Positions 1,522 through 64,000 of a stretch of DNA of 64,000 bases are shown here, piece by piece. The notes under the pieces are model-generated. The model was given only the letters and a program-made list of their open reading frames with translations, did no database searches and was not told the DNA's origin. This DNA comes from Natrialba sp. SSL1. GTDB lineage: Archaea; Halobacteriota; Halobacteria; Halobacteriales; Natrialbaceae. Numbering within the stretch: position 1 is the first letter of the stretch; each line of letters begins with the position of its first letter. The stretch covers positions 1-64,000 of the forward strand of contig NZ_MASN01000034.1 in assembly GCF_001861355.1 (NCBI RefSeq), written 5' to 3'. The position numbers and the translations under genes were made by a program.

Positions 1522-1575
1522 ATGCAATGCATTGAGTATTTCCAACGACTCGAAGCTGAAGGGAAAGGCTGGGAG
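1522..1575 (+). repeat. Right arm of 54-bp inverted repeat
   Basis: Identical, in inverted orientation, to bases 1-54. It encodes the first 18 residues of the plus-strand C-terminal half. Confidence 0.9.
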
Positions 1576-3828
1576 CTAGAATCCAGAACGCGAGAAGAGA
1601 TAGAGGAAATCGAATCTGGAAAAGGCTCCTCATCATTGTACGCAAAGCGAACGGCCATCCTCAACAATTTGTACGGAGTCGATATCGACGAAGGTGCTGT
1701 TGAGATCTGCAAGCTCAGGCTCTGGTTGTCGATGGTCGCTGATATCGAGGATGAACCGAGCGAGGTGGAGCCGCTCCCCAACATCGATTTCAACGTACGA
1801 CAGGGCAACAGCCTAATCGGTCAACTAGATACGGACATCGAGAGTAACGAAGACGGAGACAGCGATCTCGATTCTTGGGAGGTGAAAACTCGTTTTGAGG
1901 ACGTGAAAGAAGCCATCAAGAAGCACAAGAAAGCGGAGACCAGTATTGAAGCTCAAGAATGGCGGAAGGAGGCAGAAGACAGAATAGAGGAACACCGGGA
2001 CAAATTTGATGAAATCCTTCGGCGAGAATTCCAAGACGCTGGCTTTGACGACATTACGATCGAGGAAATTCGGGAGTGGTCCCCCTTCCACTGGCCGTTG
2101 GAGTTCGCCGACGTCTTCGAGAAAGGTGGATTCGACGTATTCATCGGGAACCCACCATGGGACATGCTCTACGCGAATCGCGACGACTTCTTCATCCGCT
2201 ACGATGAGCAGTTCCGTACCTATCAGTCGGAGGAAAAAGACGGTGTGATGGAAGACCTCCTCTCAAGCCCTGAAGTTGCGTGGGAATGGGAGGACTACAA
2301 GGACTCAATGGAAACTCAGGCAAACTTCTTCACGCAAGGAGATGTCTATAAGCTTCAATCTCCGGTGGTGGGCGGTCGAACGATGCCGACAAAGAACGAA
2401 CTTTCGGCTCTTTTTCTTGAGCGGGTCTTCAGACTCTCCAAAGACGGCGTGAAGGTGAGTCTGCTCCTCCCGGGGACTATTTTCGGGGGAGTGATGGGGA
2501 AAGACCTTCGAACGCATCTACTGGACCACACGGACGTGGAGAATCTCATCGGGTTTGAGAACAAGGGTATCTTTGAGGCTATCGACGATAGATACCGGTT
2601 CGCGATTCTGACGTTCGAATATGGGGGGAAGACATCAGCTCTTCGGGGGATATTCAACCAACGTGACATGGATATAGTCTACAGGATCGAAGATGAGGCA
2701 GTCAACATTCCGCGCGACGTACTCGTCAGTTATTCTCCAGAAGGGAAAATCTTCCCATCCATCACCTCGCAGATCGAAGTAGGCGTCTTGGAGAAGGTAG
2801 TTGAGCAGCCTTCCTTGGATGAAGATTTAGAGGAGGCTTGGACAGTTGATATGCTCACTAAGGAGTTCGTTGAATCGACTGATAAGGATAGGCTCCTGAC
2901 ATCGCCGGAGGAGGCCGACTATCCCGTCTATGGCGGCAAAAATATCCACCAGTTCCAGTACGATAATACCCACACAGATGCGTTAGATGGACCCCAGTAC
3001 TGGAGTCGGGGGATGTACGATCCACCGAATAGTGCTCAGTACCGTGTTCGAGAGAAGAAATTCAACAGAGGTAATCTCAAACGGGCAATCTACGACGCCT
3101 TTGGAGGTTCAGAGACGAGCAAGTCTCAAGTTCAATTCGTAGATGAACTACTCGACGAACACCGTAGTCACGGACTTGAGGAAGAAGATGTCCTGCTCGA
3201 TTGCACTGAATACCGAATCGGCATTCGAGACGTTTCTCGATCCCGGGACGAGCGGACGATAATAGCGACGGTACTTCCGAAGGACGTCATCTGTCTCCAC
3301 ACCATTAACACGTTCAAGCCGTTCGCTATTGAACCGGAAGAGAAACACCTCACAGAGTCCCCACTTCGGTCACCCTACGTCCGGCGATTTACGGATCAAG
3401 AACTCTTCGTGGCAACGGGGCTCCTGAACAGCATTGCGTTCGATTTCCTGATGCGAACTAAAGTCGAGACGCACATCGTCAAGCGCGAGCTATTGGAATC
3501 CCAGCTACCACGGCTCACCGACGGAGATGACTGGTTCCATTATATCGCTGAACGAGCTGCCCGATTGAACTGTTACGGGAAAGAATTCAAAGAAATGCGT
3601 GAGCGACTCGGCGGAATCGAGACAGCGGTAGAAGATCAAGAACGCAGAGAATTACAGGCTGAAATCGACGCGGCCGCATTCCACGCGTATGGCCTGGAAC
3701 GTCGTGACGTGAAGTTTATTCTCGACGACTTCCATCGCGTTGAGAATCCGAAGCTGATGGACGAGATGTACTTCGATCTGGTCTTGGAGAAATATGATTT
3801 ACTGGATCAGAAGGGGCCCCTACCGTAG
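1522..3828 (+). CDS. C-terminal half of PglX/Eco57I-like methyltransferase (apparently silent cassette)
   Basis: This 768-residue frame has the catalytic motif IV, FIGNPPWDM, near residue 210, followed by a long region that in this family contains the target recognition domain and a C-terminal helical part. It lacks motif I (DPAVGSGAF), which is on the oppositely oriented N-terminal half at 1-1359. It has no obvious start of its own: the ATG at 1522 is an internal codon of the inverted repeat, and the promoter-like region points the other way. Alone it should be inactive. It is most simply an alternative specificity half that becomes expressed after inversion of 55-1521. It ends 8 bases before the convergent helicase gene. 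An old inversion that simply killed the gene is the alternative. Confidence 0.85.
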   Translation: MQCIEYFQRLEAEGKGWELESRTREEIEEIESGKGSSSLYAKRTAILNNLYGVDIDEGAVEICKLRLWLSMVADIEDEPSEVEPLPNIDFNVRQGNSLIGQLDTDIESNEDGDSDLDSWEVKTRFEDVKEAIKKHKKAETSIEAQEWRKEAEDRIEEHRDKFDEILRREFQDAGFDDITIEEIREWSPFHWPLEFADVFEKGGFDVFIGNPPWDMLYANRDDFFIRYDEQFRTYQSEEKDGVMEDLLSSPEVAWEWEDYKDSMETQANFFTQGDVYKLQSPVVGGRTMPTKNELSALFLERVFRLSKDGVKVSLLLPGTIFGGVMGKDLRTHLLDHTDVENLIGFENKGIFEAIDDRYRFAILTFEYGGKTSALRGIFNQRDMDIVYRIEDEAVNIPRDVLVSYSPEGKIFPSITSQIEVGVLEKVVEQPSLDEDLEEAWTVDMLTKEFVESTDKDRLLTSPEEADYPVYGGKNIHQFQYDNTHTDALDGPQYWSRGMYDPPNSAQYRVREKKFNRGNLKRAIYDAFGGSETSKSQVQFVDELLDEHRSHGLEEEDVLLDCTEYRIGIRDVSRSRDERTIIATVLPKDVICLHTINTFKPFAIEPEEKHLTESPLRSPYVRRFTDQELFVATGLLNSIAFDFLMRTKVETHIVKRELLESQLPRLTDGDDWFHYIAERAARLNCYGKEFKEMRERLGGIETAVEDQERRELQAEIDAAAFHAYGLERRDVKFILDDFHRVENPKLMDEMYFDLVLEKYDLLDQKGPLP

Positions 3829-3836
3829 CTCCCGAA

Positions 3837-6800
3837 TCACTGTCCGACAACCCCCCAGCATACGAGCTTCGCTTGTACATCACTCTCTCCCATCAGTTTC
3901 GTCTGGTATTCAGTAGAGGCTTCGACGTTCTCTTCCAAGAACTCCTCAAGCTGACTGAGGAACTCCCCGGTCGGCCACTCTGGGAAAGAGTCGTACTGCT
4001 CGTTCTGGCGAAAGATCTCTCGTAGGATTCGGTCTTCATCCGTGTTCGCCAGCTTTACCTCCTGCAGCCGCTCTTCGATGTCGGTAGCCCATTCTCCTAC
4101 CGTTTCGAACTCTTCGACAGGAGCCGGCTCATTGCCGTGATTCGGCTGAACGTAGTGACTGATGAAATCGAGGATCGTCTCCTGTTCCTTCGAGAAGGCC
4201 TCCCCCTGTTTGAAAGCACCCTCAACTTGGCCTTCTCGAATCACCTCCAGACGCTCGTCAAGCACTGCTTGAATCTCACCGCGATTCGATAACACCGTAT
4301 CTGGATTTCCAGTAATCGGTTCGCCGTCAACTGAAGGGTCAATGTTGAGCGTGCTCACGGGCCGCTCTTTGACCTCGTCGGCGAAGGGCTTGTAGTAGAA
4401 AGCACGACGGACGCGACCAAGCGGGGACTCGTGGTCATCATCGTCGAACCAGAGGTGGGCAAGGGCGAATACGCCCGGACGAGGACCGGCATCGTGGTCA
4501 GTTACATTTGTGTAGAGGAATTCCCGTTCTTCGGGCGGGTCATCGAAGAAGTCCTCAGCGTACTCGAAGTCTTCCGCAGTTAGGTCATAATCCTCGTTCA
4601 GTTCTCGCTTCAGAAGGTACCGCTCGAACGCAGCGTGTTCATTACTCCCAGCATTGCGGAGGAGCGGATTCTTGCTCGTGTCGTCGAGTTCATTCACGTC
4701 GTCAATTTCACGGGACTTCTGGAGAGAGTCCTCAATCTCGTCCACCTGTAATTCCCCGATTGTCTTCTCCGTGTCTACACCTGTCTTTTCGAGAATCTGG
4801 TCTTCGTTCGGATCAAGGATATTGTTCTCCTTTCCGACGATGAGCGCGATATCGTTGATCTTTGCCTGCAGGCGTTTCAGGAGCTTAATCGCCGCCTCGA
4901 TGTCGCCGTCCGGGTAGAAGTTGTGGACGTGTTTCTCGGCGGTACTCCCGATCCGGTCGACTCGCCCGACACGCTGGACAATCCGCATCGGGTTCCACGG
5001 CAGGTCGTAATTGACCACCACATGAACGTCCTGGAGATTAACCCCTTCACTCAGCGTGTCAGTGGCCACTACGTACTGTAGCTCTGAGTCCCCCGACTCG
5101 GCGAGCGTTTGCTGGTAGCCTGACGCCTCGGGGGCAAAGCGTTGAATGATGTCCTGTTTATTCTCGTCGCCACCCTTGACGACGGCACTGTTCGCCTCTG
5201 TGAGTGGTGAATCCTCGTTGTCACAGAGGGTTCGATAGACGTAGTCTGCAGTTGCCCGATACTGCGTGAAGATGAGCACCTTCTGATCGTGGTTAGTGAG
5301 GACATCTGCAAGTCGGTCGATCTTCGGGTCGCGGAACTCACGGAGTGAAAAGACGGCCTCGTAAAAGTCGCGTGTGGCAGGGTCGACTTCACTCAGGTCA
5401 CTATTCGGGTAGAGAATCGGATTCATCTCTTCTTCAGGAATATCGGGGAGGACACCAGCACCGTGGTCAGCGAGCCATTGCCGCGTGGAAACCGCATAAT
5501 CGCTCACATCACCCGCATCACGGGCGACATCACCGATGAACTGCGAGAGGAAATACGAGAGAAGGGTGAGGTCCTCCCTGATGTACGTTTTCACCTCGCC
5601 GATGGTGGCGTCTGCCAGTTCATCTCCCTCGGTATCAGCTCCGTCTTCCGATTGAATAGCGGTGGTATCGAAACCGAATTCTTCGAGTGTTTGTTCGAGA
5701 TCTTCAGCAGCGTCGGCTCCTTCGACAAAGTCACCGAGTTCAGAGTCATCCCCTTCCCGAACAGTTCGGAGCATATCGATGTCTTCGTCCTCGGGAAGTT
5801 CGCCAAGAAGGCCGAGAAGCTGGCGTTCGCTCTGATGTAGCGTCTCGATCGACTGGACGAACGCGTACGTTGAGGACTCGAGCCGTTTGAGGAGGTTCAG
5901 CTTGTAGAGAGCTTTCAGCGTGCTCCCTGCTTTCGGGTTTTTGACTGTGATGTGGGGTAGGTGGAGGGCGTCCATCACGTCGGGAAGCATCCGATATATT
6001 GGCTGGTAGGCCGCCGGCAGGGAGTACTGTTGCTTGTTGAGTTTCGGCGGCTTGAAGCTCATCTCGAAGTCTTCGCTGTCCTGTATCTGGTCTTTGACGT
6101 GCTTGCGCGTCCGGAGAACCATCACTTCGTTAAGGATATTCGATATCTCAGAGGAGTGTCGCTGGAGCTGCTCGGTGATTTCTTGCTGTTCGTCGTCGCC
6201 GACTTCCTCTTTCCCGGCTGCGATGCGTTTTCGCGTCTCCGAGAGCTCGATATATTCGTCGAACGCATCAAAGTCGAGTGACGCCTTGTTCCGAAGTTCC
6301 TCCGGGCTGGTGAACAAGCTGATGAGGTTCTTCAGGTCGGTAGCGCTGTTATTGATCGGGGTCGCGGTCAGCATTATCATCGTCTTTCCGCGGAGCTGCC
6401 TGAGATTCGCGTGTCGTCGCGTCCCCTTGTAGTCGTCATCGTGGTCCGGGTTCGGTCGCCACTTTCCGTAGTTCCGGAACCGGTGAGCCTCGTCGATAAG
6501 CAGGACGTCGAACTCGTCTTTGAGGTCCTGCACCTCGTCGTAGGAGAGATTCTGGAACTTACTGATACTAATCACGTCAAGGTGCGTGCCGTCTACCTCT
6601 AACCCGAAGTACGGATTGCCGTCTTCGTCAGTGTCGTTCTGGAGTAGGTCTTCCCACTGATCAGTCAGGTTGGCCGGGACAATGAGGAGACAGTGGTCGC
6701 CACGTTGGCGGTAGTCGTGGAGGAGTTCACCCCCAATAAATGATTTCCCCAGGCCGACCGAGTCGGAAACGATGCACCCGTTGAACTGGGAGAGCTTCTC

Positions 6801-10007: not shown

Positions 10008-11036
10008 ATGATCCGCGATGCTCGCGTTCTACGCGCCGGGTTCGTCCCTCGAGAAGTTGAGCATCGCGACGCCGAAGTCAACCATCTCTCCAGCGTTCTC
10101 GAGCCCATCACGAGCGGTGAACCCGCCGACACAGCCATCGTCACCGGACCCAGCGGCACCGGCAAGACGTGCATCTCGCAATTCGTCACCGAGCGACTCC
10201 GGGAAGAGGTCCTCGACGTCGAGACGACCTACGTCAACTGCTGGCGCAACTACACCCGGTTCCGCACGCTCTATCAGATCCTCGACGACCTCGGCGCGAC
10301 CATCGACATCCACCGGCAGTCGACACCCCACGACGAACTCGTCGACCGCCTCCAGCAGCATGACGGCCCGCGAACCGTCGTCATCCTCGACGAGGTTGAT
10401 CAGCTTGAAGACCCCGGCGTCATCTACGACCTCCACAGCCTCCCGCAGTTCGCGATCATCTGCATCGCGAACAAGGAAGAGGAGCTGTTCAGCCGCGTCG
10501 ACGACCGCCTCGTGAGCCGGCTGCGCTCTAGCGAACACGTCCGGATGGACAAGTACCACGACGAGCAGCTGTACGACATTCTGAGTTCGCGGGCGAAGTG
10601 GGGGCTCGACGAGGACGTCATCACCGACGACCAGCTATATCGAATCGCCGACGCGGCCGCCGGCGACGCCCGCCTCGCAATCGGCATCCTCCGAACGGCC
10701 GCCGGCAAGGCCGATCGCGAGAACCATGAGCGCATCACCGACGACATTCTCCTGAACGCCGCCGAGGATGCTCGGGCCCAGATCAAGCAGAAGAGCCTCG
10801 ACTCGCTCACGCCGCACCAGCGCGTCGTCTACGACATCGTTCGCGAGCACGGCCCGGTCGGGCCGAGCGAGATTCACGAGCGCTATACCGAGGACGTCGA
10901 TGATCCGCGGACGAAGCGGACTATCCGAACGTACCTCTCGAAGATGGAGCAGTACAACCTCCTCGAGGCGGAAGGGACGAGTCGGGACCGAGAGTACTCG
11001 CTCGTCGATTCGGCGTCGGCGTCGCCGATGCAGTGA
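10008..11036 (+). CDS. Orc1/Cdc6-type AAA+ ATPase
   Basis: 342 residues. Walker A VTGPSGTGKT (about residues 44-53), Walker B VVILDEVDQL, a sensor-1 IICIANK and an arginine-finger-like DRLVSRL give the AAA+ core. The C-terminus has a winged-helix region (VYDIVREHGPVGPSEIHERY). This is the archaeal replication initiator family. It is shorter and more divergent than the initiator at 16619, and I see no ORB repeats beside it, so it may be a plasmid-type initiator with other sites or a regulator. A truncated second copy of its first 63 codons lies at 40019-40276. Confidence 0.8.
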   Translation: MIRDARVLRAGFVPREVEHRDAEVNHLSSVLEPITSGEPADTAIVTGPSGTGKTCISQFVTERLREEVLDVETTYVNCWRNYTRFRTLYQILDDLGATIDIHRQSTPHDELVDRLQQHDGPRTVVILDEVDQLEDPGVIYDLHSLPQFAIICIANKEEELFSRVDDRLVSRLRSSEHVRMDKYHDEQLYDILSSRAKWGLDEDVITDDQLYRIADAAAGDARLAIGILRTAAGKADRENHERITDDILLNAAEDARAQIKQKSLDSLTPHQRVVYDIVREHGPVGPSEIHERYTEDVDDPRTKRTIRTYLSKMEQYNLLEAEGTSRDREYSLVDSASASPMQ

Positions 11037-15472: not shown

Positions 15473-16618
15473 TGCTGAGTGGAGACACGGAAGGGAGTTG
15501 GAGAATACTTCGCCCACACACCCCTCGTCCAGAGTGAAAACCAATCAGAAGAGTGGGGTGGGGTCCACGGGAAACGGTGGTTCTTGTGGGGAGAAAGCCA
15601 CGGGGATCGCGGAAAGACTGCTTGAGACGGGAGAACACGGAGGAAATGGAACAGTGAACACGAGCAGCGGTTCGAAACCACCCGGACGAATGCCGCTTTC
15701 GTCCTTCTTCTCGTGCTGAATGCACTTGGAGAGTGGTAGGAAGTGGGTAGTAATAAAACCTCTAGGTAATGCTATGAAGATTGGTATGTTTAGAGGATCT
15801 TCGACTGTGTGACGACCGCTGTTAGAGGGATACACGCCTCACGTCTTGTGATTTCAGTACTTCCCAGCCGACTCGTCGTGTGGTTTCCACCCGGTGAGCT
15901 GTGGGACTCTCGTAGCGTTTCACTCTGGACGAGGGGTGTGGGGGTTCGATTCCGTCGTCCGTGTATTATGAGACGTTGAAGGAACAATCGTCATTCTGAC
16001 TATTCGTCAACCAGCGAAGCGGCACCAAAGCCGAAATCGGGATTAGTATCTCCCGACCTTCCTCGTCAACCGGAATCAGGAGGCCCAATCCCAACAGTTC
16101 CGATTGTACCCTGCTTTGCTTCGGCTGGAGATCTGACCTGCGTCTTCACTCTTGATTGGGGGTGCCGACGAACGCTCGACACCATCACTCGAGGTTCACA
16201 CTCCACTCCAGCTCGTCACACCGGCGCTTTCACTCTGGACGAGGGGTGTCTGCCGTGCGTCAGACGCCCAGGGCCGATGTGTCCTCTCATAGATATGATT
16301 GATTACCCGGTTCGGGAGATACACTCTGGACAGGGGGTGTCGTCTCAACCAAGTACGCTGCTCCCGGATGGAGGACTATTCACTCTTGACCAGGGGTGTG
16401 TCAAACCCGCTCCAGTCCGGCGTTTTCACTCTGGATTAGGGGTGCCGGTCTGCGTCAGTAACTCTCGCTCCGAATCCGATTTCACTCGGGACCGGCTCGA
16501 CTCTTTGTGAGGATGATACGCCAGCGACAAAACATCAGAAGACGACCATAGCCCGATTTACACTCTGGTCGAGGTAGCCAAATCATTAAGTAGGTCCCAT
16601 CCGCGATGTCTGATATTG
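15473..16618. other. Replication origin with ORB repeats
   Basis: This 1.1-kb stretch has no credible gene. It contains repeated 22-bp boxes of the form TTTCACTCTGGACGAGGGGTGT. Plus-orientation copies are at 15918-15939, 16144-16165, 16228-16249, 16319-16340, 16378-16399 and 16424-16445, with degenerate ones near 16480-16500 and 16558-16579. One copy in the opposite orientation is at 15518-15539, and another lies beyond the initiator gene at 17918-17939. The inverted pair at 15518 and 15918 brackets an AT-richer stretch (about 15725-15800) suited to duplex opening. Boxes with a G-string next to an orc1/cdc6 gene are the standard haloarchaeal origin layout. Confidence 0.85.
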
Positions 16619-17896
16619 ATGGCTGAGGAACCGTCCCAACTCTCTGACTTCGACGGCCGCTACGAGGATCCCGCTGACGATCCCCTCTTTGACTTTGATG
16701 AAGACGACCCCGACCGCGCCAACATTTTCGCTCGCAAAGAGCTGCTTAAGGTGGGCCACGTCCCTGAAAGTGGCCGTATCGTCGGCCGGGATGGCGAGAT
16801 CAAGGCCGTTGCTGCTGAACTCAGACCGATCGTTCGTGGCGATCCGCCCAACAACGTGATTATTTACGGCAAAACGGGAACCGGGAAGTCACTCGTTGCC
16901 CGTCACGTCACCGAGCGAGCCCGGCGAGCCGCGGAGTCGAACGGTGTGTCCGTCGGCACGGTCTACGTCGACTGCGCGCAGCACAACACACAGACACGCG
17001 TCGCGAGGACAGTGACTCGTTCACTCAACGAGACGGACGAGACTGACTTCGATATTCCACGCGCAGGGATTGGCAGCGGTGAATACTACGACTATCTCTG
17101 GGAGATTCTGGATACTGCCTACGAGTCAGTAATCATCATCCTCGACGAGGTGGACCGACTCGATGACGATGATATTCTTATGCAGCTCTCGCGGGCTCGC
17201 GAATCGGGGAAAGCGGATTGCCACCTGGGCGTCATCGCAGTCAGCAACAAGATCGAGTATCGCGACCAGCTGAACGAACGCGTCAAGTCCAGTCTTCGCG
17301 AGGAGGAGTTCGTCTTCCAACCCTACGACGCGAATCAACTGCGCGAGATTATGAAGCACCGACGGGACGCGTTCCACGATGGGGTTCTCTCGGATGATGT
17401 GATCCCGCTGACGGCGGCACTAGCCGCTCAAGAACACGGTGACGCCAGAAAGGCCATCGAAATTCTTCGTCACGCCGGCGAACTGGCCGAACGAGAAAAC
17501 GTCGATACAGTCGTCGAGGAACACGTTCGCGATGCCCAGGAGTGGGCTGAAATCGATCGCTTCGAGGAGCTTCTCCGTGGATCGACGACCCAAGTCAAAT
17601 TCATCCTCTATTCGCTCGCGCTGCTCACCGAAGAGAATCCGAACGAGGACGGGTTTTCGACCAACCGTATTTTCGAACGGTATCAGGCGACGACAGAGAA
17701 GGCTGATGCGAAGACTCTCAGCGAGCACCGCGTCTACGAGCTGTTGAAAGAGCAGGCGTTCCTCGGTGTCGTTGAATCAACTCGGACCGGGGGTGGCCGG
17801 GGTGAGGGCAGTTATCTCGAGCACCGGCTGGTTCAGGACACCGGTATCGTGTTGAAATCTGTCCTCCGAGACAGTCGGTTGGAGGACTTGGCCTAG
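16619..17896 (+). CDS. Orc1/Cdc6 replication initiator of the adjacent origin
   Basis: 425 residues from ATG 16619 (a TTG just before it is less likely). AAA+ core: Walker A VIIYGKTGTGKS, Walker B VIIILDEVDRL, sensor 1 GVIAVSNK and LNERVKSSL. The C-terminal winged helix begins around residue 320 (VKFILYSLALLTEENP) and would bind the ORBs. It has the usual length for the family. The nearest degenerate ORB ends 40 bases before the start, so initiator binding could also regulate the gene. Confidence 0.93.
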   Translation: MAEEPSQLSDFDGRYEDPADDPLFDFDEDDPDRANIFARKELLKVGHVPESGRIVGRDGEIKAVAAELRPIVRGDPPNNVIIYGKTGTGKSLVARHVTERARRAAESNGVSVGTVYVDCAQHNTQTRVARTVTRSLNETDETDFDIPRAGIGSGEYYDYLWEILDTAYESVIIILDEVDRLDDDDILMQLSRARESGKADCHLGVIAVSNKIEYRDQLNERVKSSLREEEFVFQPYDANQLREIMKHRRDAFHDGVLSDDVIPLTAALAAQEHGDARKAIEILRHAGELAERENVDTVVEEHVRDAQEWAEIDRFEELLRGSTTQVKFILYSLALLTEENPNEDGFSTNRIFERYQATTEKADAKTLSEHRVYELLKEQAFLGVVESTRTGGGRGEGSYLEHRLVQDTGIVLKSVLRDSRLEDLA

Positions 17897-29228: not shown

Positions 29229-31865
29229 ATGAACACCCGAACAACCAATCTCGACATCCGAGGGATGTCCTGTGCGACGTGTGCCTCGACCATCGAGGAT
29301 ACCGTCGCCGATCTCGAGGGGGTGGCGTCGGTCGACGTCAACTTCGCGACCGACGAAGCGACCCTCAAATACGAACCCGACGAGGTCGTCCTCGATGAAA
29401 TCTACAGCGCGATCGAGGATGCCGGCTACGAACCCGATCGGACGAAGACGACCATCGGGATCGCGGGGATGACGTGTGCGACGTGTGCGGAGACGAACGC
29501 CGAGGCGATCGAGAACGTGCCGGGCGTCCTCGACGCCGACGTCAACTTCGCGACTGACGAGGCGACCGTCGCGTTCAACCCACACGACACGTCGCTGTCG
29601 GCGATCTACGACGCGATCGAAGACGCCGGCTACGAACCGGATCGCCAAGTCGACGAGCACGGCGACGACCTGACCGAAGAACGGGAGAGCGCCGTCGAGC
29701 GCGAACTCCGAACGAAGCGCAAGTGGGTCATCATCGGCGGGATCTTGGCGTCACCGTTCCTGTTGGTGATGGTCGATATGTTCTATCCGGGCTTTTTGCC
29801 GGAGACCATCCTCGGGATCAACACCGGCTGGTACGAGTTCGTCCTCGCGACCGGTCTGATGGCAACGTTGGGCTGGCACTTTCTCAAGGGCGCGTACAAG
29901 TCGCTGGTCAATAACCGGCAGGCGAACATGGACACGCTTGTCGCCGTCGGTACCTCCGCTGGCTATCTCTACAGTACCGCCGTCCAGCTCGATCTGATCG
30001 TCGGCGGCCTCTACTACGAGGCGGTCGCGATCATCCTCTGGTTCATCTACGTCGGCGTCTGGCTCGAAGCCCGATCGAAGGCCCGTGCCAGCGCGGCGCT
30101 CCGTGAACTGCTCGAGATGCAGGCCACGGAGGCGACCATCATCGTCGACGGCGAGGAACAGGTCGTCCCGATCGAGAACATCGAGGTCGGCGACGTGATG
30201 AAGGTTCGACCCGGCGAGAAGATTCCCACGGACGGTGTGGTCGTCGACGGACAGAGTGCCGTCGACGAGTCGATGGTCACCGGCGAGTCCGTCCCCGTCG
30301 AGAAGAGTGAGGACGATCAGGTGGTCGGGAGCACGATCAACGAGAACGGCGTACTCTTAGTCGAAGCGACGAACGTCGGCGAGGACACGGCTATCCAACA
30401 GATTGTCCAGCGGGTCAAGGAGGCGCAGGCGCGCCAGCCCGACATCCAGCGACTGGTGGACAAGTTCACCGCCTACTTCGTCCCGGCGGTGATCGCCAAC
30501 GCGGTTTTGTGGTCGATTCTATGGCTGGTCTTCCCCGAAGCCCTCCACGGCGTCTCCGCGTCGCTCGGGTCGTGGATTCCGCTGCTCGAACCGGTCGGTG
30601 GCGGCCCCGTCGCGGGCGGCGTTCCCGTGTTCGAATTCAGTATCGTCGTCCTCGCATCGGCGATCCTGATCGCGTGTCCCTGTGCGCTGGGGCTGGCGAC
30701 GCCGATGGCGACGATGGTCGGCTCGACGATCTCGGCGAAAAACGGTGTCCTATACAAGGGTGCAGACATCCTCGAGAAGGCCCGCGGCATCGACGTCGTG
30801 GTCTTCGACAAGACGGGGACGCTCACCCACGGCGAGATGCGACTGACCGACGTCGTTCCGATCGACGAAGCGGTTGGAACTGACGGCGGCTCGGGGATCG
30901 CCGACGGTGGAGTCGTCCAAGAGGAGACGATTGCGGACGAAGCGTTCGTTCTCTCCGTTGCGGCAAGCGCCGAATCGGGATCCGAACATCCGCTCGCGCA
31001 GGCGATCGTCGAGGGGGCAGCGGAACGCGATCTGCGGCTCGAAGAACCGACGGCGTTCGAGAACGTTCCCGGCCACGGCATTCGGGCAGAAATTCCTCAG
31101 GGAGACGTGCTGGTCGGGAATCGGAAGCTCATGCGGGACAACGACATCGACCCGGCTCCCGTTGAGAAAACGATGGAACAGCTCGAGCGTGACGGGAAGA
31201 CGGCGATGCTCGTCGCCCTTGACGGCGAACTCCTCGGCGTCGTTGCGAACGCCGACACGGTTCGCGAGAGTGCCAAGGAGACGGTCGCCGAACTTCACCG
31301 GCGCGGCTACGAAGTGATGATGCTGACCGGCGACAACGAGCGTACCGGGCGGGCGATCGGCGAGCAGCTTGGCATCCCTGAGGAGAACGTTCACGCCGAA
31401 GTGCTTCCCGAGGACAAAGCCGACGAGATCGACGCGATTCAGGCAGACGGCTCGCGAGCCATCATGGTCGGCGACGGGGTTAACGACGCCCCCGCGTTGA
31501 CCACCGCGCACGTCGGCGTCGCGATCGGCTCGGGAACGGACGTGGCCATCGAGAGCGGCGACATCACGCTGATGCGGGACGACCCGATCGACGTGATCAA
31601 GGCGATGCGGATCGCCGACGCGACGATCTCGAAGGTGCGCCAGAACCTGTTCTGGGCGTTCGCCTACAACGCGACGCTGATCCCGATCGCGTCGCTCGGA
31701 TTGCTCAATCCCGCCTTGGCGGGGATCGCGATGGCCGCCTCCAGCGTCTCGGTCGTCTCGAACAGCCTCGCGTTCATGAAGTGGGATCCCCACGACGACT
31801 ACGTCTTCCTACCGTTCCGGCCGTTCGTATGGGCGTACGACCAACTCGCTGGGATTTCGAAATGA
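29229..31865 (+). CDS. copA: Copper-exporting P1B-type ATPase CopA with two HMA domains
   Basis: 878 residues. Two N-terminal HMA domains ([10 protein letters not shown] near residue 12, [10 protein letters not shown] near 85), A-domain [10 protein letters not shown], membrane metal site [12 protein letters not shown] (CPC near 483), phosphorylation site [11 protein letters not shown] (near 527), SEHPLAQAI (HP motif), [10 protein letters not shown] and a C-terminal [14 protein letters not shown] (MxxSS). These define P1B-1 Cu(I) exporters. A TATA-like CTAAATAT lies about 28 bases before the start. The next gene begins one base after its stop. Confidence 0.95.
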
Positions 31866-36052: not shown

Positions 36053-38344
36053 ATGTCCGACCACAGCCACGAACACGACGGCCACACCGAAGAGCATGCT
36101 CCAGACTCACAGGAACCCGACGAGCGATTGACGGATCGGCGTTGTCCTTGTTGTCGAGTCTGTAATCTGAACGTCGAAGACGAGACCGACGACGAGCGGT
36201 TGGAAGAGACGGACGCCGAATACACCGCTCGTCACGAGGCGGAACCCGATGCAGAAGACGGGCACGCGCCCCATCACGATCACGACGCACACGCGGACGA
36301 CCACGACCACGACCACGGCGCTCACGTCGACCACTCCGGCCACGAGGAGATGTTCAAACGGCGGTTCTTCGTCAGCTTCGTCCTCGCGATACCGGTGTTA
36401 GCGTATAGTCCGATGCTACAGGAGTGGTTTGGGTTCACCGCACCGACGTTCCCAGGAAGCGTGCTCGTCGGCCCGGTACTCGGCACGCTCGTATTCCTCT
36501 ACGGCGGGATCCCATTCCTCCGGATGGGGGCTGCCGAGGCCCGCAAACGCGAACCAGGGATGATGCTGTTGATCTCGCTGGCGATAACCGTCGCGTTCGT
36601 CTACAGCGCGGCTGCCGTCGCCTTCGATATCGGCGAGCCGTTCTTCTGGGAGCTCGTGACGCTGGTCGTCATCTTCCTGCTCGGTCACTGGATCGAGATG
36701 CGCAGCGTCCGTCGAGCGTCGGGCGCGCTGGACGAGCTGGCTGAATTGATGCCCGACACGGCCGAGCGTATCACGGAGAGCGGCGACACTGAGGACGTTC
36801 CCGTCGACGAGCTAGCGGCTGATGATCTCGTGCTCGTCCGGCCGGGGGCGAACGTTCCGGCCGATGGCATCGTCGAAGAGGGCGAGTCCAACGTCAACGA
36901 GGCGATGATCACCGGTGAGTCTCGTCCCGTTGGGAAGGAGCCGGGCGACGAGGTGATCGGTGGGACGACCAACGGCGACGGCAGTCTGCGTGTTCGCGTG
37001 ACCGCGACGGGTGACGAGACGACCTTGTCGGGGATCGTGCGACTGGTTGAGGAAGCCCAACAGAGCAAGTCGCGCACGCAGGTGCTCGCCGACAGGGCAG
37101 CAGGATGGCTGTTCTACGCCGCCCTCGGCGTCGCCGCGCTCACCGCCGTGGCGTGGACGATCGCGGTCGGCTTCGGGCTGCCGGTCGTCGAACGTGTCGT
37201 CACGGTACTCGTCATCGCGTGTCCGCACGCACTCGGCCTCGCCGTCCCGCTGGTGGTCGCGATTAACACGACGATGGCCGCCAACAACGGGATGCTTATT
37301 CGGGATCGGATCGCGATGGAGGAGGCCCGCAACCTCGATACCATCGTCTTCGACAAGACAGGCACGCTCACCAAAGGCGAGCAAGGCATCGTTGACGTCG
37401 AGACGACGACTGACTGGGATGAGGATGACGTCCTTTCGCTGATGGCGGCCGTCGAGAGCGACTCCGAACACATGATCGCCGAAGCGATCCGAGACGCCGC
37501 CCGGGAGCGGGAACTGGACGTCCCCGACGCCCACGGCTTCGAGGCGCTGAAGGGTCGGGGCGTCCGTGCGACCGTCGAGCTGGAAGCCGCTGCCCTTCCC
37601 GACGCGGAGGCGAGCGGTGGACAAGATGGGGAGACGGTGTACGTCGGTGGCCCGAACCTGCTTCGCCACCTCGACGTCGATCCCAGTGATGAGCTCAAGG
37701 CGTTCAGCGACGAGGCCGGCGAACGCGGACAGGGCGTTGTCTATCTGATCCGCGACGGCGAGGCAATCGGGGCGGTTGCCCTCGCGGACGTCATTCGCGA
37801 GGAGAGCCGCGAGGCGATCGACGCGCTTCACGCGATGGGTGTCGAGGTGGCGATGCTGACCGGCGATAGCGAAGATGTCGCTCGCGCCGTCTCCGAAGAA
37901 CTCGGCATTGACACGTACTTCGCGGAGGTGTTGCCCGACGACAAGGACAAGAAGATCATCGAGCTGCAAGAACAGGGCAATCTCGTAGCGATGGTCGGCG
38001 ATGGTGTCAACGACGCCCCTGCGTTGACCCGTTCGGACGTGGGCATCGCGATCGGTTCCGGAACGGACGTCGCCGTCGAAGCGGCCGACGTCGTCCTCGT
38101 TGAAAACGACCCGCGGGACGTGGTGAAACTCGTCCGGTTGAGTCGCAAGAGCTACCGGAAGATGCAGGAGAACCTCGTCTGGGCAGCCGGCTACAACGTG
38201 TTCGCGTTGCCGCTGGCAGCGGGCGTTCTTGCGCCGATCGGGATCTTGCTCTCGCCGGCCGTGGGTGCCGTGTTGATGTCCGCGAGTACGGTCATCGTCG
38301 CGATCAACGCCCAGTTCCTCAAACGCGCAGATCTCTCTGGGTGA
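36053..38344 (+). CDS. copB: CopB-type P1B ATPase with His-rich N-terminus
   Basis: 763 residues. The N-terminus has a Cys cluster ([11 protein letters not shown]) and a long His/Asp-rich stretch (residues about 65-100) in place of HMA domains. Core motifs: [10 protein letters not shown], membrane site [12 protein letters not shown] (CPH near 391), [20 protein letters not shown] (HM where HP is usual), [10 protein letters not shown] and a C-terminal [13 protein letters not shown]. The CPH site and His-rich tail define P1B-3 (CopB-like) Cu/Ag pumps. With CopA this gives the island two distinct copper ATPases. Confidence 0.92.
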
Positions 38345-60027: not shown

Positions 60028-61284
60028 TCAGCGGTCCTCAGAGCGACTTCCAAACAACCGTTTTGTCCGGCTCCACGCGGACGCACTCTCAGATACTTCA
60101 TCGGCCTTGTCGGTATTGGCGGCTTGCTCCTTGTCGGTGCGTCTTATCTCGCAATCGCGATCTGCACCTGCAGCTTTGAGGTCCTCGAGCTTCGTCTCGA
60201 GCTGGTCGATGCGTTCGTTCTTCCGTTTGAGTGTTTCCTCGAGCTCGTCAACACGGTCAGTCAACAATCGGTTCTTTTCAGCCAAATACGCGTGAGTTCG
60301 ACTCGATTTGTTACGGTCGGAATTCGAAGACGTCTCACTTGTTGTGAGAGAGGTCTGAGTAGCCTCGCCTCCGGAGTCTGGGTCGTAGAACTCCGATGTA
60401 TTCGCGATCGCTCGCTCGAGAGTCTTCTCACCGTACGTCGATCCATCGGCATAGTGGATCTCGTCCCATTTCTCTCGAAGAAGGCCGGACTGCCGGAAGA
60501 GCTTATCCATCCACATGGCGTCGCCGCCAGTCCAGAAGGCGAGCAGGAAACACAGCGCCATATCCGCCTCGGACTGACTCTCGTAGCTGAGTGTGTTCCC
60601 GTTCCAGAGGCGTTCGAACTTCTCCCCATTCGTCGCGTTGCACGCCTTTTCGAGGAGTTCCTCATCATCGAGGTCGATTTCCGCGCTGGGCTCTCCTGCT
60701 GCCTCATTAGGTGGATCACTGTCCCTATCGTCAGTCGCGTCGTCCTGAACGTACTCACGATGGACTGCTGTGAGCGCGTCTTGACGCGTCGCGACCGTTG
60801 TCGGCGTTTCGTCGACGTGCTCTCCAGTGACCGTAAAGAAGCGTGCTGAATCATACATCTCGATTGCTCCTTTCCGATTCCGGTCACCGTGGAGTTCCCC
60901 CTCTACGATGACGTGATACCCAGTTCCGGACGGTGATCGTTCGGTGTAGGAATCGAGCCGGTCGATGATATCTTGTGCTGCCTCGTCGATGGCGCCGGTG
61001 TCCAGGTCACGACAGTCGTCCAGGTCGATGCCGACAAACGAGTCGTTATCAGTAAAGACGAAGCCGATTCCGTCAGCGTTCCCTGCCTCGGTATACTCGA
61101 GGGCGTCGTCGAAGGTTGTCCACGTTTGATCGTCCGTCGACGAGGCAAACTCCCCCGTCGTTGGTGTGATCGGAACCTTTGTCGGTTTCCCATCGCGTTC
61201 CTGTTCGCGCCAGCAGATCCACTGATCGGACTCGACGAGCCCCGCCGGGAGTACCGATTCATCGAGCGTAAATTCATCAGTCAT
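60028..61284 (-). CDS. Archaeo-eukaryotic primase-polymerase-like protein (NrS-1/BT4734 type)
   Basis: 418 residues from ATG 61284. AEP-type core in residues 1-170: WICWREQERDGKPTKVPITP, then DGIGFVFTDNDSFVGIDLDD (catalytic acids), SGTGYHVIVEG (His) and MYDSARFFTVTGEHV. A helical bundle follows (ADMALCFLLAFWTGGDAMWM), typical of the helical domain of these primases, then a long coiled coil (RVDELEETLKRKNERIDQLE). No helicase domain is fused. It should prime or copy plasmid DNA. Iteron-like repeats lie just upstream. Confidence 0.85.
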   Translation of the reverse strand: MTDEFTLDESVLPAGLVESDQWICWREQERDGKPTKVPITPTTGEFASSTDDQTWTTFDDALEYTEAGNADGIGFVFTDNDSFVGIDLDDCRDLDTGAIDEAAQDIIDRLDSYTERSPSGTGYHVIVEGELHGDRNRKGAIEMYDSARFFTVTGEHVDETPTTVATRQDALTAVHREYVQDDATDDRDSDPPNEAAGEPSAEIDLDDEELLEKACNATNGEKFERLWNGNTLSYESQSEADMALCFLLAFWTGGDAMWMDKLFRQSGLLREKWDEIHYADGSTYGEKTLERAIANTSEFYDPDSGGEATQTSLTTSETSSNSDRNKSSRTHAYLAEKNRLLTDRVDELEETLKRKNERIDQLETKLEDLKAAGADRDCEIRRTDKEQAANTDKADEVSESASAWSRTKRLFGSRSEDR

Positions 61285-61306
61285 AATTCTAGAAAATCGC
61301 CGCTGG

Positions 61307-61330
61307 CGACCTCGATCCCCTTCGGGGTCG
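61307..61330 (-). promoter_or_regulatory. Leader stem-loop of the primase-polymerase gene
   Basis: Stem CGACC/GGTCG, loop CCGAAGGGGATCGA. 22 nt before ATG 61284. Confidence 0.55.
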
Positions 61331-61412
61331 ACGACAAACTGCCACCTGCTGGTCGCGTCGATCCAACCCTTTGGTTCCAACGGGGAACCCCCCTCCTATA
61401 CTAGTTGGTTTT

Positions 61413-61591
61413 TGGGTGGAACAGGAGCTATAAACAGAGGAAAATCGGAAGACGTGATGGTGTTCCACCCAGTGTAGTGCTGCTGTTCGTGTTCCACCCA
61501 AGATATCAATGGGTGGAACACGGTTCCATCCCGTGATTTTCGTTTCGACAACGAACCTGCTTGACTCCATCCCTCTGCCGTGGGTGGAACA
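61413..61591. repeat. Five TGGGTGGAACA repeats (iteron-like cluster)
   Basis: Exact 11-bp copies at 61413-61423, 61510-61520 and 61581-61591 (plus) and 61461-61471 and 61490-61500 (minus). The pair 61490-61520 forms an inverted repeat with 9 bases between. They fill the 363-base gap between the primase-polymerase gene and the conjugation-type ATPase, where I see no gene. Repeated boxes beside a primase gene suggest a replication origin or an autoregulatory operator. Confidence 0.75.
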
Positions 61592-61647
61592 GCGCGCTCT
61601 CGGGCGATTGTCTGCCTGTAGGCAGTTTGTATTCATCCCTCGCATCT

Positions 61648-64000
61648 CTATGATTCCGTCTCCTGCTGTGGTGCGAATCGGAAGCCAGTATAACAGCGGA
61701 CGAGTTCCCCATCACGTCTTTCCCGACCTGTCTCGAACTCGATATGATCGCCAAGTTTCCGGGAGAACCAACTCTTGTTAACTGGATCGATCTCATGCTC
61801 AGCCGCCCAGTCCGTGTACATGGTGTAGACCTCAGCTTTCGGAAGAGTCGTCTCGCCGTCTTCGATGAGAAATGCATCGACAAACGAAGCAAACGATACG
61901 TCAGTATGCTCCGCAGCCTCTTCTTTTTCCGTCTGGGAAGGCTGAGCAGCTGGTTTGTCGTTGAGTTGCTCTTGTTCTGTTTCGGTCGATGCTAATTGCA
62001 GTGTTCCTTCTACCAACGTTGAGAGCGGTCTCGTAGCGCCGTCTTCGTATACAACAGATTCACCGTCATCACGAAGGATCACGATACCGTACGATGATCG
62101 CTGATATCCTGGCACGGGTAATTCATCATCAGGGATGAATGGCTTCTTGATCCGAGTCCAGTCAGCCTCGAATGCATCTTTCGAGCCGTAGACGTGCTGC
62201 TCCCCCTGCTCGTACACGACGTACTCATCCGCTGCGTGGTCGTAGCTGTAGATGGCAGGGAATCGGCCCTTCGACGCGTCCGCGAGCGTCGGGAGTCGAG
62301 TGTACTCGATCCCATTGCCATCTCTGAGCACGAATTCGTCATCCTCACGCATCCAGACGGTTCGGCTTGAGTCCGTCTCACCAGTCGCGGGCCGGACGGC
62401 AGTCACGCCACCTTGTTCGGTCGCTCCTCCGCTGAAGGTGATATGTCCGTCGTGGGTATAGAATCGGGTTTCACCACTTGCGAGCTGTTGAACCGGCGGT
62501 GACAGAATCTGCTCAACTCGTTCAGCCCAGTAAGTTTCCGTATCGCCGGGGCGGACAACGAATAACGGAATGTGTTCAGCGTCCTGTGCTTTTCTGAGGT
62601 TGGTAAGAACCTTCACCGGGTTCTCCGGTGTCGTGGTTTCGGCCTCGATAGCAAATGTTTCATCAAGATCGGGATGCGTTGCTTTCGCGTCTGGCCGTTC
62701 GTTACCATCCTGCGTGAGAATCGTAACACGAAATTCGAGCGTCGTGAGTGCGGCCTCGATCTCCAGTAGCGCCGCATCGTGCGCCTCGCTTCCCGATGCT
62801 CTCACGTCACCGGTGTCTGGCGCTGCTGCAGTCTCTCCGATGTCGGTCAGACGGACCAGGAGTTCGTCGGCGGCTGTATCGAGGTCGACATTGAGAAGCC
62901 GTGATCGCTCCCGGATGTCCGCGAGCACATCGTAGTCTGGTGGATCACTATCTATTCCATCGAAGCATGCCCGCAGTTCGGCGTCGACGTCTTCGACGGC
63001 CACCCATCCATTCTCGTCGCGAACGCCATCTCGGAGTTGGATGATCCGAATCGTCTTCGCGAGCGCCTGATCGAGATCCTGATTTGCCGTGCCGAGGATC
63101 TCTTGTACTGCTTCGGGAGACCGTTCCGACGATGCGATTCCGGTTTCGGGTACACCGAACTCATCGCTCGTCTGCTCGTGAATGGTCGACAGCAACTCAT
63201 CAAAACGATCTTCTTCCGAGTCGGTCAACGGAGACTTGCTCTCGGGATGACCCGTAGGGATCGGCAACGGTTTCACGCTAAACGGATATGGGCCGGTTTC
63301 GCCGAACGTCGGACTCGGGAGCTGTGCGATCCACTCCCCGCGTGGCAGTGATCGAATCCGATTGGCGAACTCGGTCGGATCCATCTCCTCGTGAGCCATC
63401 GCCTTGGCCAGATCGCGGTCGACGTTGATCTTCCCGACAATCGGGCTGCCGATATCGTTCAGGACGTTCAGATACACTTTTCGCCCGCCTTCGGCTTCGA
63501 TCTGCTCCGGAAACTGCATCGACAATCCAACTGAAAGCCGGAAGCTCCGGCCCTTCTCGAGCAGATCGTTCATAATGTTGGAGACCACGACTGAGGCAGC
63601 CTCGTCGATGAGGAGGTTCACGACGTAGTCGTCCGGCTGCTGGTTCACCGCCCGCTTTTGCTCGCGGAGAGCGTCATCGAGGTTCGTAAGAATCACACCC
63701 GTCATGAGCCGTGCGGCTTCATTGCGGAGACCGCCAAGATCGAACAGAATGACCGTGTTCTCGTCGAGGGCGTCTCGGAAGTCGAACCGGGACTCGGTGT
63801 TGTTGAAGATCCGGCGCAGATGCGTATCCTGTGAGATATAGGCGAGACGATTCCCGACACCACCCATCACGTTCGCGAACGTATTCGGGTCGAGCTGCAG
63901 TTGACGGCGAATCGTCCGGCGGACTTCTTCGTCACTCGAGCGCGGCACTTCATCCTCTCGTGGATTTGGCGGTCCTGCCTGCCAGAGCTGGTCGACTATG
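61648..64000 (-). CDS. VirB4/HerA-like ATPase with nuclease-like and D5-type winged-helix C-terminal domains (5' end outside)
   Basis: 783 residues visible, and the frame is open to base 64000, so the N-terminus with Walker A is missing. The first part is the C-terminal half of a HerA/VirB4-type ATPase: ENTVILFDLGGLRNEAARLM, Walker B VVNLLIDEAASVV, GRSFRLSVGLSMQFPEQIEA. The middle has a possible PD-(D/E)XK-like core (DETFAIEAETTTPENPVKVL, then HIPLFVVRPG). The last 80 residues (FVDAFLIEDGETTLPKAEVY; TDWAAEHEIDPVNKSWFSRK) resemble the winged helix at the end of D5/P4-type primases. Probably drives DNA during conjugation. Confidence 0.75.
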   Translation of the reverse strand, partial: IVDQLWQAGPPNPREDEVPRSSDEEVRRTIRRQLQLDPNTFANVMGGVGNRLAYISQDTHLRRIFNNTESRFDFRDALDENTVILFDLGGLRNEAARLMTGVILTNLDDALREQKRAVNQQPDDYVVNLLIDEAASVVVSNIMNDLLEKGRSFRLSVGLSMQFPEQIEAEGGRKVYLNVLNDIGSPIVGKINVDRDLAKAMAHEEMDPTEFANRIRSLPRGEWIAQLPSPTFGETGPYPFSVKPLPIPTGHPESKSPLTDSEEDRFDELLSTIHEQTSDEFGVPETGIASSERSPEAVQEILGTANQDLDQALAKTIRIIQLRDGVRDENGWVAVEDVDAELRACFDGIDSDPPDYDVLADIRERSRLLNVDLDTAADELLVRLTDIGETAAAPDTGDVRASGSEAHDAALLEIEAALTTLEFRVTILTQDGNERPDAKATHPDLDETFAIEAETTTPENPVKVLTNLRKAQDAEHIPLFVVRPGDTETYWAERVEQILSPPVQQLASGETRFYTHDGHITFSGGATEQGGVTAVRPATGETDSSRTVWMREDDEFVLRDGNGIEYTRLPTLADASKGRFPAIYSYDHAADEYVVYEQGEQHVYGSKDAFEADWTRIKKPFIPDDELPVPGYQRSSYGIVILRDDGESVVYEDGATRPLSTLVEGTLQLASTETEQEQLNDKPAAQPSQTEKEEAAEHTDVSFASFVDAFLIEDGETTLPKAEVYTMYTDWAAEHEIDPVNKSWFSRKLGDHIEFETGRERRDGELVRCYTGFRFAPQQETES

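Follow-up and report, generated by a model that had tools for sequence, protein, structure and literature searches.

The window, by which we mean the whole stretch of 64,000 nucleotides that was analysed, belongs to a circular 153-kb haloarchaeal plasmid. The contig that carries it (C34) measures 153,008 bp, and since its first 25 bases are repeated about 55 bp before its end, the plasmid is probably a circle of about 152,953 bp. Our subject is a gap at 61285-61647, bounded by the start of a primase-polymerase gene (61284, minus strand) and by the end of an ATPase gene (61648). Exact copies of the iteron TGGGTGGAACA lie in it at 61413-61423 (plus strand; the proximal copy), 61461-61471 (minus), 61490-61500 (minus), 61510-61520 (plus) and 61581-61591 (plus; the distal copy). 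The third and fourth belong to the left and right arms of an inverted repeat, which is perfect over 13 bp (61488-61500/61510-61522) and has a 9-nt spacer. The exact sequence occurs six times in the 4.58-Mb genome, five of these inside 61413-61591, and a reversed-sequence control of this whole-genome count gave zero matches. The first-pass annotation had claimed five exact 11-bp repeats with one inverted pair, in a 363-base gap upstream of an AEP primase-like gene. This description holds: all the repeats are found, the borders are right, and the gene proves to be of the NrS-1 type (PDB 7rr3, 2.7e-38). The same iteron class (TGTTCCACCCA) is present in the relatives L017, L048, L057 and L064. What it did not contain is a conserved core at 61397-61411, a second motif at 61441-61453, and the four to five equally spaced sites in relatives with other iteron sequences.

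The primase-polymerase (60028-61284, minus strand) has a PrimPol core and a helix-bundle domain (HBD PF22763, 1.5e-30), as the NrS-1 type requires, and lacks a helicase domain. On the other side of the gap, a coupling-protein/HerA-type ATPase of 1440 amino acids is encoded on the minus strand from 61648 to 64000, continuing outside the window to C34:65970; its match to PF01935 is above the cut-off (2e-7) and that to TrwB_AAD_bind below it (0.002). The C-terminus of this ATPase is a D5/RFX-type winged helix (61675-61899, minus strand; PF03288 above the cut-off, model pLDDT 82, match to the RFX DNA-binding domain 1dp7 with E 7.6e-5), with KSWFSRKLGDH (61744-61776, minus strand) as its recognition helix. 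The winged helix occurs only once in the genome, adjoining the iterons. Further upstream in the protein, residues 1055-1140 (62551-62808, minus strand) form a predicted PD-(D/E)XK-like nuclease domain with conserved E, PD and ExE. Its predicted topology fits the alpha-beta-beta-beta-alpha-beta core with ExE replacing ExK, and its best fold matches are the Hjc, RecU and VRR_NUC nucleases (prob at most 0.97, E at least 0.04, from a weak model of pLDDT 52); Pfam and PDB sequence searches with the domain gave zero matches. Because the structural model is weak, we treat the putative nuclease as a lead only.

In the operon, the 1440-aa gene is preceded by genes for VirB6 (TrbL_3, 3e-204), a 372-aa protein and VirB4, so that the order is VirB6, VirB4, coupling ATPase, iteron site, PrimPol. 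The presence of VirB4 and VirB6/TrbL_3 beside the coupling ATPase identifies this as a conjugation operon. The gene order recurs on a complete 81-kb plasmid, where a 'transfer complex protein' and a 'conjugal transfer protein' are followed by a gene located where the PrimPol match falls. A separate arrangement on one plasmid (L183, NZ_CP095399.1, 25392-31629) consists of an ATP-binding protein, then a DNA primase, then a 'primase-associated protein', and is possibly a second transfer module likewise ending in a primase. Elsewhere on the present plasmid, similar long open reading frames, both starting MQCIEYFQRLEAEGKGWELESR, lie opposed at window 1522-3828 (plus strand) and C34:150659-153007 (minus strand), flank the junction of the plasmid sequence, and could be a large inverted duplication. 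Several reading frames whose beginnings resemble, by eye, P-type heavy-metal ATPases are found at window 29229-31865 and 36053-38344 and at C34:104554-106833, 107302-109584 and 131967-134360; they are probably metal-resistance cargo.

Aligning the upstream regions of relatives revealed that the proximal iteron touches a core with the consensus AAAACCAACTAGTATA, which here reads AAACCAACTAGTATA (61397-61411, minus strand) and is BRE/TATA-like. Allowing at most one mismatch, a search of 392 Halobacteriales genomes finds this invariant core at 104 places, spread over 76 of them. Among the loci compared, a PrimPol match accompanies 93 of 111 core matches (some duplicate loci counted), its usual start lying 105-146 bp downstream. 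The core is only one part of a composite site, the others being a dyad arm, an element X and four to five iterons. The arm, GTTGG (61377-61381, minus strand), stands at a fixed +30 from the core start and pairs with the CCAAC of the core. Where it is present the two halves agree, CCAAC/GTTGG in 44 loci and CCGAC/GTCGG in 7, with 0 mixed pairs; it is absent in 20 loci (17 with CCAAC and 3 with GCAAC). A stable single-stranded hairpin at the core dyad was considered and rejected, its folding z-scores being inconsistent and varying by locus from +0.17 to -3.4; therefore we limit our claim to the dyad itself. Element X (AAAATCGGAAGAC, 61441-61453, plus strand; consensus AAAANCGCANGAC) is found near -44 with at most two mismatches in 50 of 68 loci, versus about 0.8 expected by shuffling.

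From plasmid to plasmid the positions of the iterons are constant and their sequence is variable. In class A they lie near -175 (plus), -107/-116 (plus), -89/-98 (minus), -60/-68 (minus) and -10 (plus). Examples are TGTTCCACCCA, that of the present plasmid, TGTTACGGCA and TGTGACACCCA; our proximal copy has its counterpart in class A relatives, and our distal copy corresponds to the -175 site of several of them. Class B consists of direct repeats near -97, -78, -54 and -22, a minority of the sites being inverted, with TGTTCAGGGCA, TGTCCAGGGTA, TGTCCACGCA and GGTCAGGGG as examples. Element X has opposite orientations in the two classes and is absent from most loci of the TTACGGCA class. In Natrinema gelatinilyticum (L011, about 4600-5000) a transposase-like reading frame is apparently inserted in the site, and the TATA-side half of the core alone stands before the primase gene.

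Which protein, then, reads the iterons? We compared iteron class with protein distances by partial Mantel tests over 68 loci, in which the effect of the winged helix was corrected for those of the ATPase remainder and of the primase. Hand-written patterns defined the iteron classes, in place of an automatic consensus that was unreliable, and column-wise mutual information was set aside, being confounded by linkage. With phylogeny corrected only in part by such a test, iteron class correlates with the distance of the recognition helix (partial r 0.55-0.59, 0 of 2000 permutations) and of the winged helix (0.50-0.53, 0 of 2000), and not with that of the primase (-0.06 to -0.08) or of the remaining ATPase (0.03-0.06), N being 49-68 throughout; the winged-helix correlation persists without near-identical loci (N 63 and 49). 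In the predicted structure, which has an RFX-like fold, helix 3 is the recognition helix, and the covarying residues lie at its beginning. Immediately before the conserved WF of this helix stands serine in all 14 GGGCA loci and valine in all 12 GGGTA loci. A natural swap is seen between L039 and L033, whose primases are 97% identical, the ATPase remainder 76% and the winged helix 31%, and whose iterons are unrelated. Two more comparisons match this swap pattern; as all three concern the same two iteron classes, they may represent a single event.

In our opinion, this covariation strongly supports the view that the iterons are binding sites for the C-terminal winged helix of the coupling ATPase, in which case the ATPase of each plasmid would recognise its own DNA. 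We rejected the PrimPol as the reader, a role that it probably does not have, since iteron class shows no dependence on the PrimPol when the winged helix is controlled for. It is important to bear in mind that covariation of this kind speaks to the probable reader of the iterons and not to the effect of its binding.

Copies of the site are not confined to transfer modules. Six orphan sites lie in five regions (two in L184 and one each in L185, L187, L189 and L190) with no module genes recognised within about 19 kb; the site in L186 has a T4SS operon 2.8 kb off, and that in L188 has ATPase remnants nearby. Two megaplasmids share, in different surroundings, a 377-bp block that contains one site (93% identity). 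Comparison of elements with spacers in the orphan sites gave no significant difference, one comparison being probably out of register; as constraint on these copies was not detected, they may be remnants. The two orphans of L184 (7897 and 17593), on a 637-kb replicon, are separated by 10 kb and differ in iteron class; the flank of the second is found in L185 beside a site of the other class. A viral origin was rejected: the ATPase query found no relatives in viral contigs, and the PrimPol relatives there are distant (best 41% identity). Viral contigs also contain 28 exact core matches.

The T4SS operon adjoining the gap, the coupling ATPase as the apparent reader and the copies without neighbouring transfer genes together point to transfer initiation. 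We therefore regard the gap at 61285-61647 as probably, though by no means assuredly, a cis-acting transfer-initiation site, similar to oriT or clt, of a relaxase-less haloarchaeal conjugative plasmid, a reading derived from comparison of sequences. The relaxase profiles PF03432 and PF08751 have no match in the genome; relaxase-positive genomes number 7 of 99, and none of these is in the list of core-bearing genomes. According to PMC9905601, recognisable relaxases are absent from archaeal conjugative plasmids. We found no description of an archaeal transfer origin in the literature searched, which left out most subscription papers. The first-pass annotation had taken the gap for an iteron control region of a separate replication or transfer mode. 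It is indeed a cis-acting region of the iteron type, with an NrS-1-type primase-polymerase as its neighbour, and the adjoining T4SS operon favours transfer, while a second vegetative origin appears superfluous.

How such a site might work can be sketched. Iteron binding would load the hexameric ATPase motor beside the invariant core, where its predicted PD-(D/E)XK domain, or another nuclease, would cut or nick. The cut DNA would be handed to the VirB4/VirB6 channel, and the complementary strand would be begun by the primase-polymerase encoded next door. In its full form, this amounts to relaxase-free archaeal conjugation in which a single protein, at once motor, nuclease and sequence-specific winged helix, would read the iterons of its own plasmid, cut at the core and pump DNA into the T4SS, an NrS-1-type PrimPol would restore the second strand, and a joint swap of winged helix and iterons would alter transfer specificity. 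We offer this complete scheme tentatively, as something possible and not as something we expect to hold in every part.

A different reading sees in the gap a regulated promoter: the core would supply the BRE/TATA for transcription of the primase-polymerase gene, and the winged helix of the ATPase would use the iterons as operators. AAAACC-AAC-TAGTATA does resemble BRE plus TATA, the downstream gene is almost always a PrimPol, and several extra-module matches (e.g. L058, L060, L087, L094) look promoter-like by eye. However, a geometrically fixed array extending over as much as 175 bp, an element X and a covarying dyad together exceed the needs of a promoter, orphan copies exist without a PrimPol, and a coupling ATPase would be an unusual repressor, so that we hold this reading, taken as the whole explanation, to be rather unlikely. 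Given its resemblance to a haloarchaeal BRE/TATA promoter, the core may also drive expression of the primase. A further rival is a partition or incompatibility site, plasmid-specific iteron sequences being typical of such sites. Yet the ParA homologue of this plasmid is encoded near 146 kb, distant from the iterons, and one genome (L101-L104) carries four or more copies whose iteron classes are similar, with two of these sharing a 276-kb contig, which makes a role of this kind very improbable.

It is also conceivable, but in our judgement unlikely, that the gap is a second, conditional origin of replication, at which the winged helix would bind the iterons in the manner of the P4 alpha protein, the motor would open the DNA and the primase-polymerase would start synthesis. 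A de novo PrimPol and a winged helix of the D5 type do lie beside iterons here, and the winged helix of P4 alpha binds origin repeats in a protein that also unwinds and primes (PMC4234260). On the other hand, the plasmid encodes two Orc1/Cdc6 homologues (window 10008-11036 and 16568-17896; 26% and 38% to a Halomarina plasmid Orc1), and orc1/cdc6 is also present on two small complete relatives, plasmids of 81 kb and 94 kb; together with ParA, these genes make the site explicable without a second vegetative origin. Moreover, iteron class does not track the primase, and the ATPase sits in a T4SS operon. The start site of NrSPol, TTTGGTTA (PMC8718748), contains TTGGTT, which also occurs on the bottom strand at the core, but the core variant CCGAC destroys this likeness, and hence an NrSPol-like start site at the core is only a weak lead. 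NrSPol priming uses GTGG (PMC8718748); the GTGG of the iterons was rejected as a PrimPol priming signal, as classes such as TGTTACGGCA do not have it. We find no support for an origin that the primase would open.

The transfer-site reading bears on how archaeal conjugation selects and processes its DNA, relaxases being reported absent and a transfer origin not being found described. Candidates can now be named for the transfer site, its probable reader protein, the nuclease and the priming enzyme, and the pattern of specificity, serine or valine with C or T, is amenable to point mutation. If the reading is true, haloarchaeal plasmids could be typed for mobility, where current typing assigns 135 of 137 plasmid records to the non-mobilizable category, and a mobilisation site would become available for genetic tools.

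Several known systems resemble this one in part. In phage P4 the winged helix that binds the origin repeats is coupled to motor and primase (PMC4234260). There, however, alpha is a single replication protein, whereas our primase is a protein distinct from the motor, which is a conjugation-type one. The primase-polymerase of phage NrS-1 is homologous in its PrimPol and helix-bundle domains, but has a C-terminal helicase domain where the present primase has a coiled-coil-like tail. At an iteron replication origin the adjacent replication protein reads the iterons, while here their class follows the winged helix and not the PrimPol. VirB4, VirB6/TrbL_3 and a T4CP-like ATPase directly upstream recall a bacterial-type oriT, an element that has a relaxase gene, whereas none was found here with PF03432 or PF08751. 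TraB of Streptomyces is a hexameric DNA motor whose C-terminal winged helix reads the short clt/TRS repeats without a relaxase. To judge from sequence and model, here too a DNA motor apparently reads repeats by means of a winged helix at its C-terminus; however, TraB is FtsK-like and T4SS-free, and our motor is T4CP/HerA-like and lies within a VirB4/VirB6 operon. In its presumed working the site comes nearest either to an oriT with plasmid-specific accessory repeats or to TraB-clt, but since no relaxase was found and the motor is neither FtsK-type nor T4SS-free, it fails one defining feature of each. In the staphylococcal plasmids of the pWBG749 family the oriT has diverged into subtypes, and a DNA-binding protein encoded by the plasmid, SmpO, determines their specificity; mimics of these oriTs occur on non-conjugative plasmids, and specificity has switched more than once (PMC8136818). 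Those plasmids have a relaxase and leave specificity to a small accessory protein, whereas here the coupling ATPase is the apparent reader and a relaxase was not found; what the two have in common is plasmid-specific accessory repeats and diverged subtypes.
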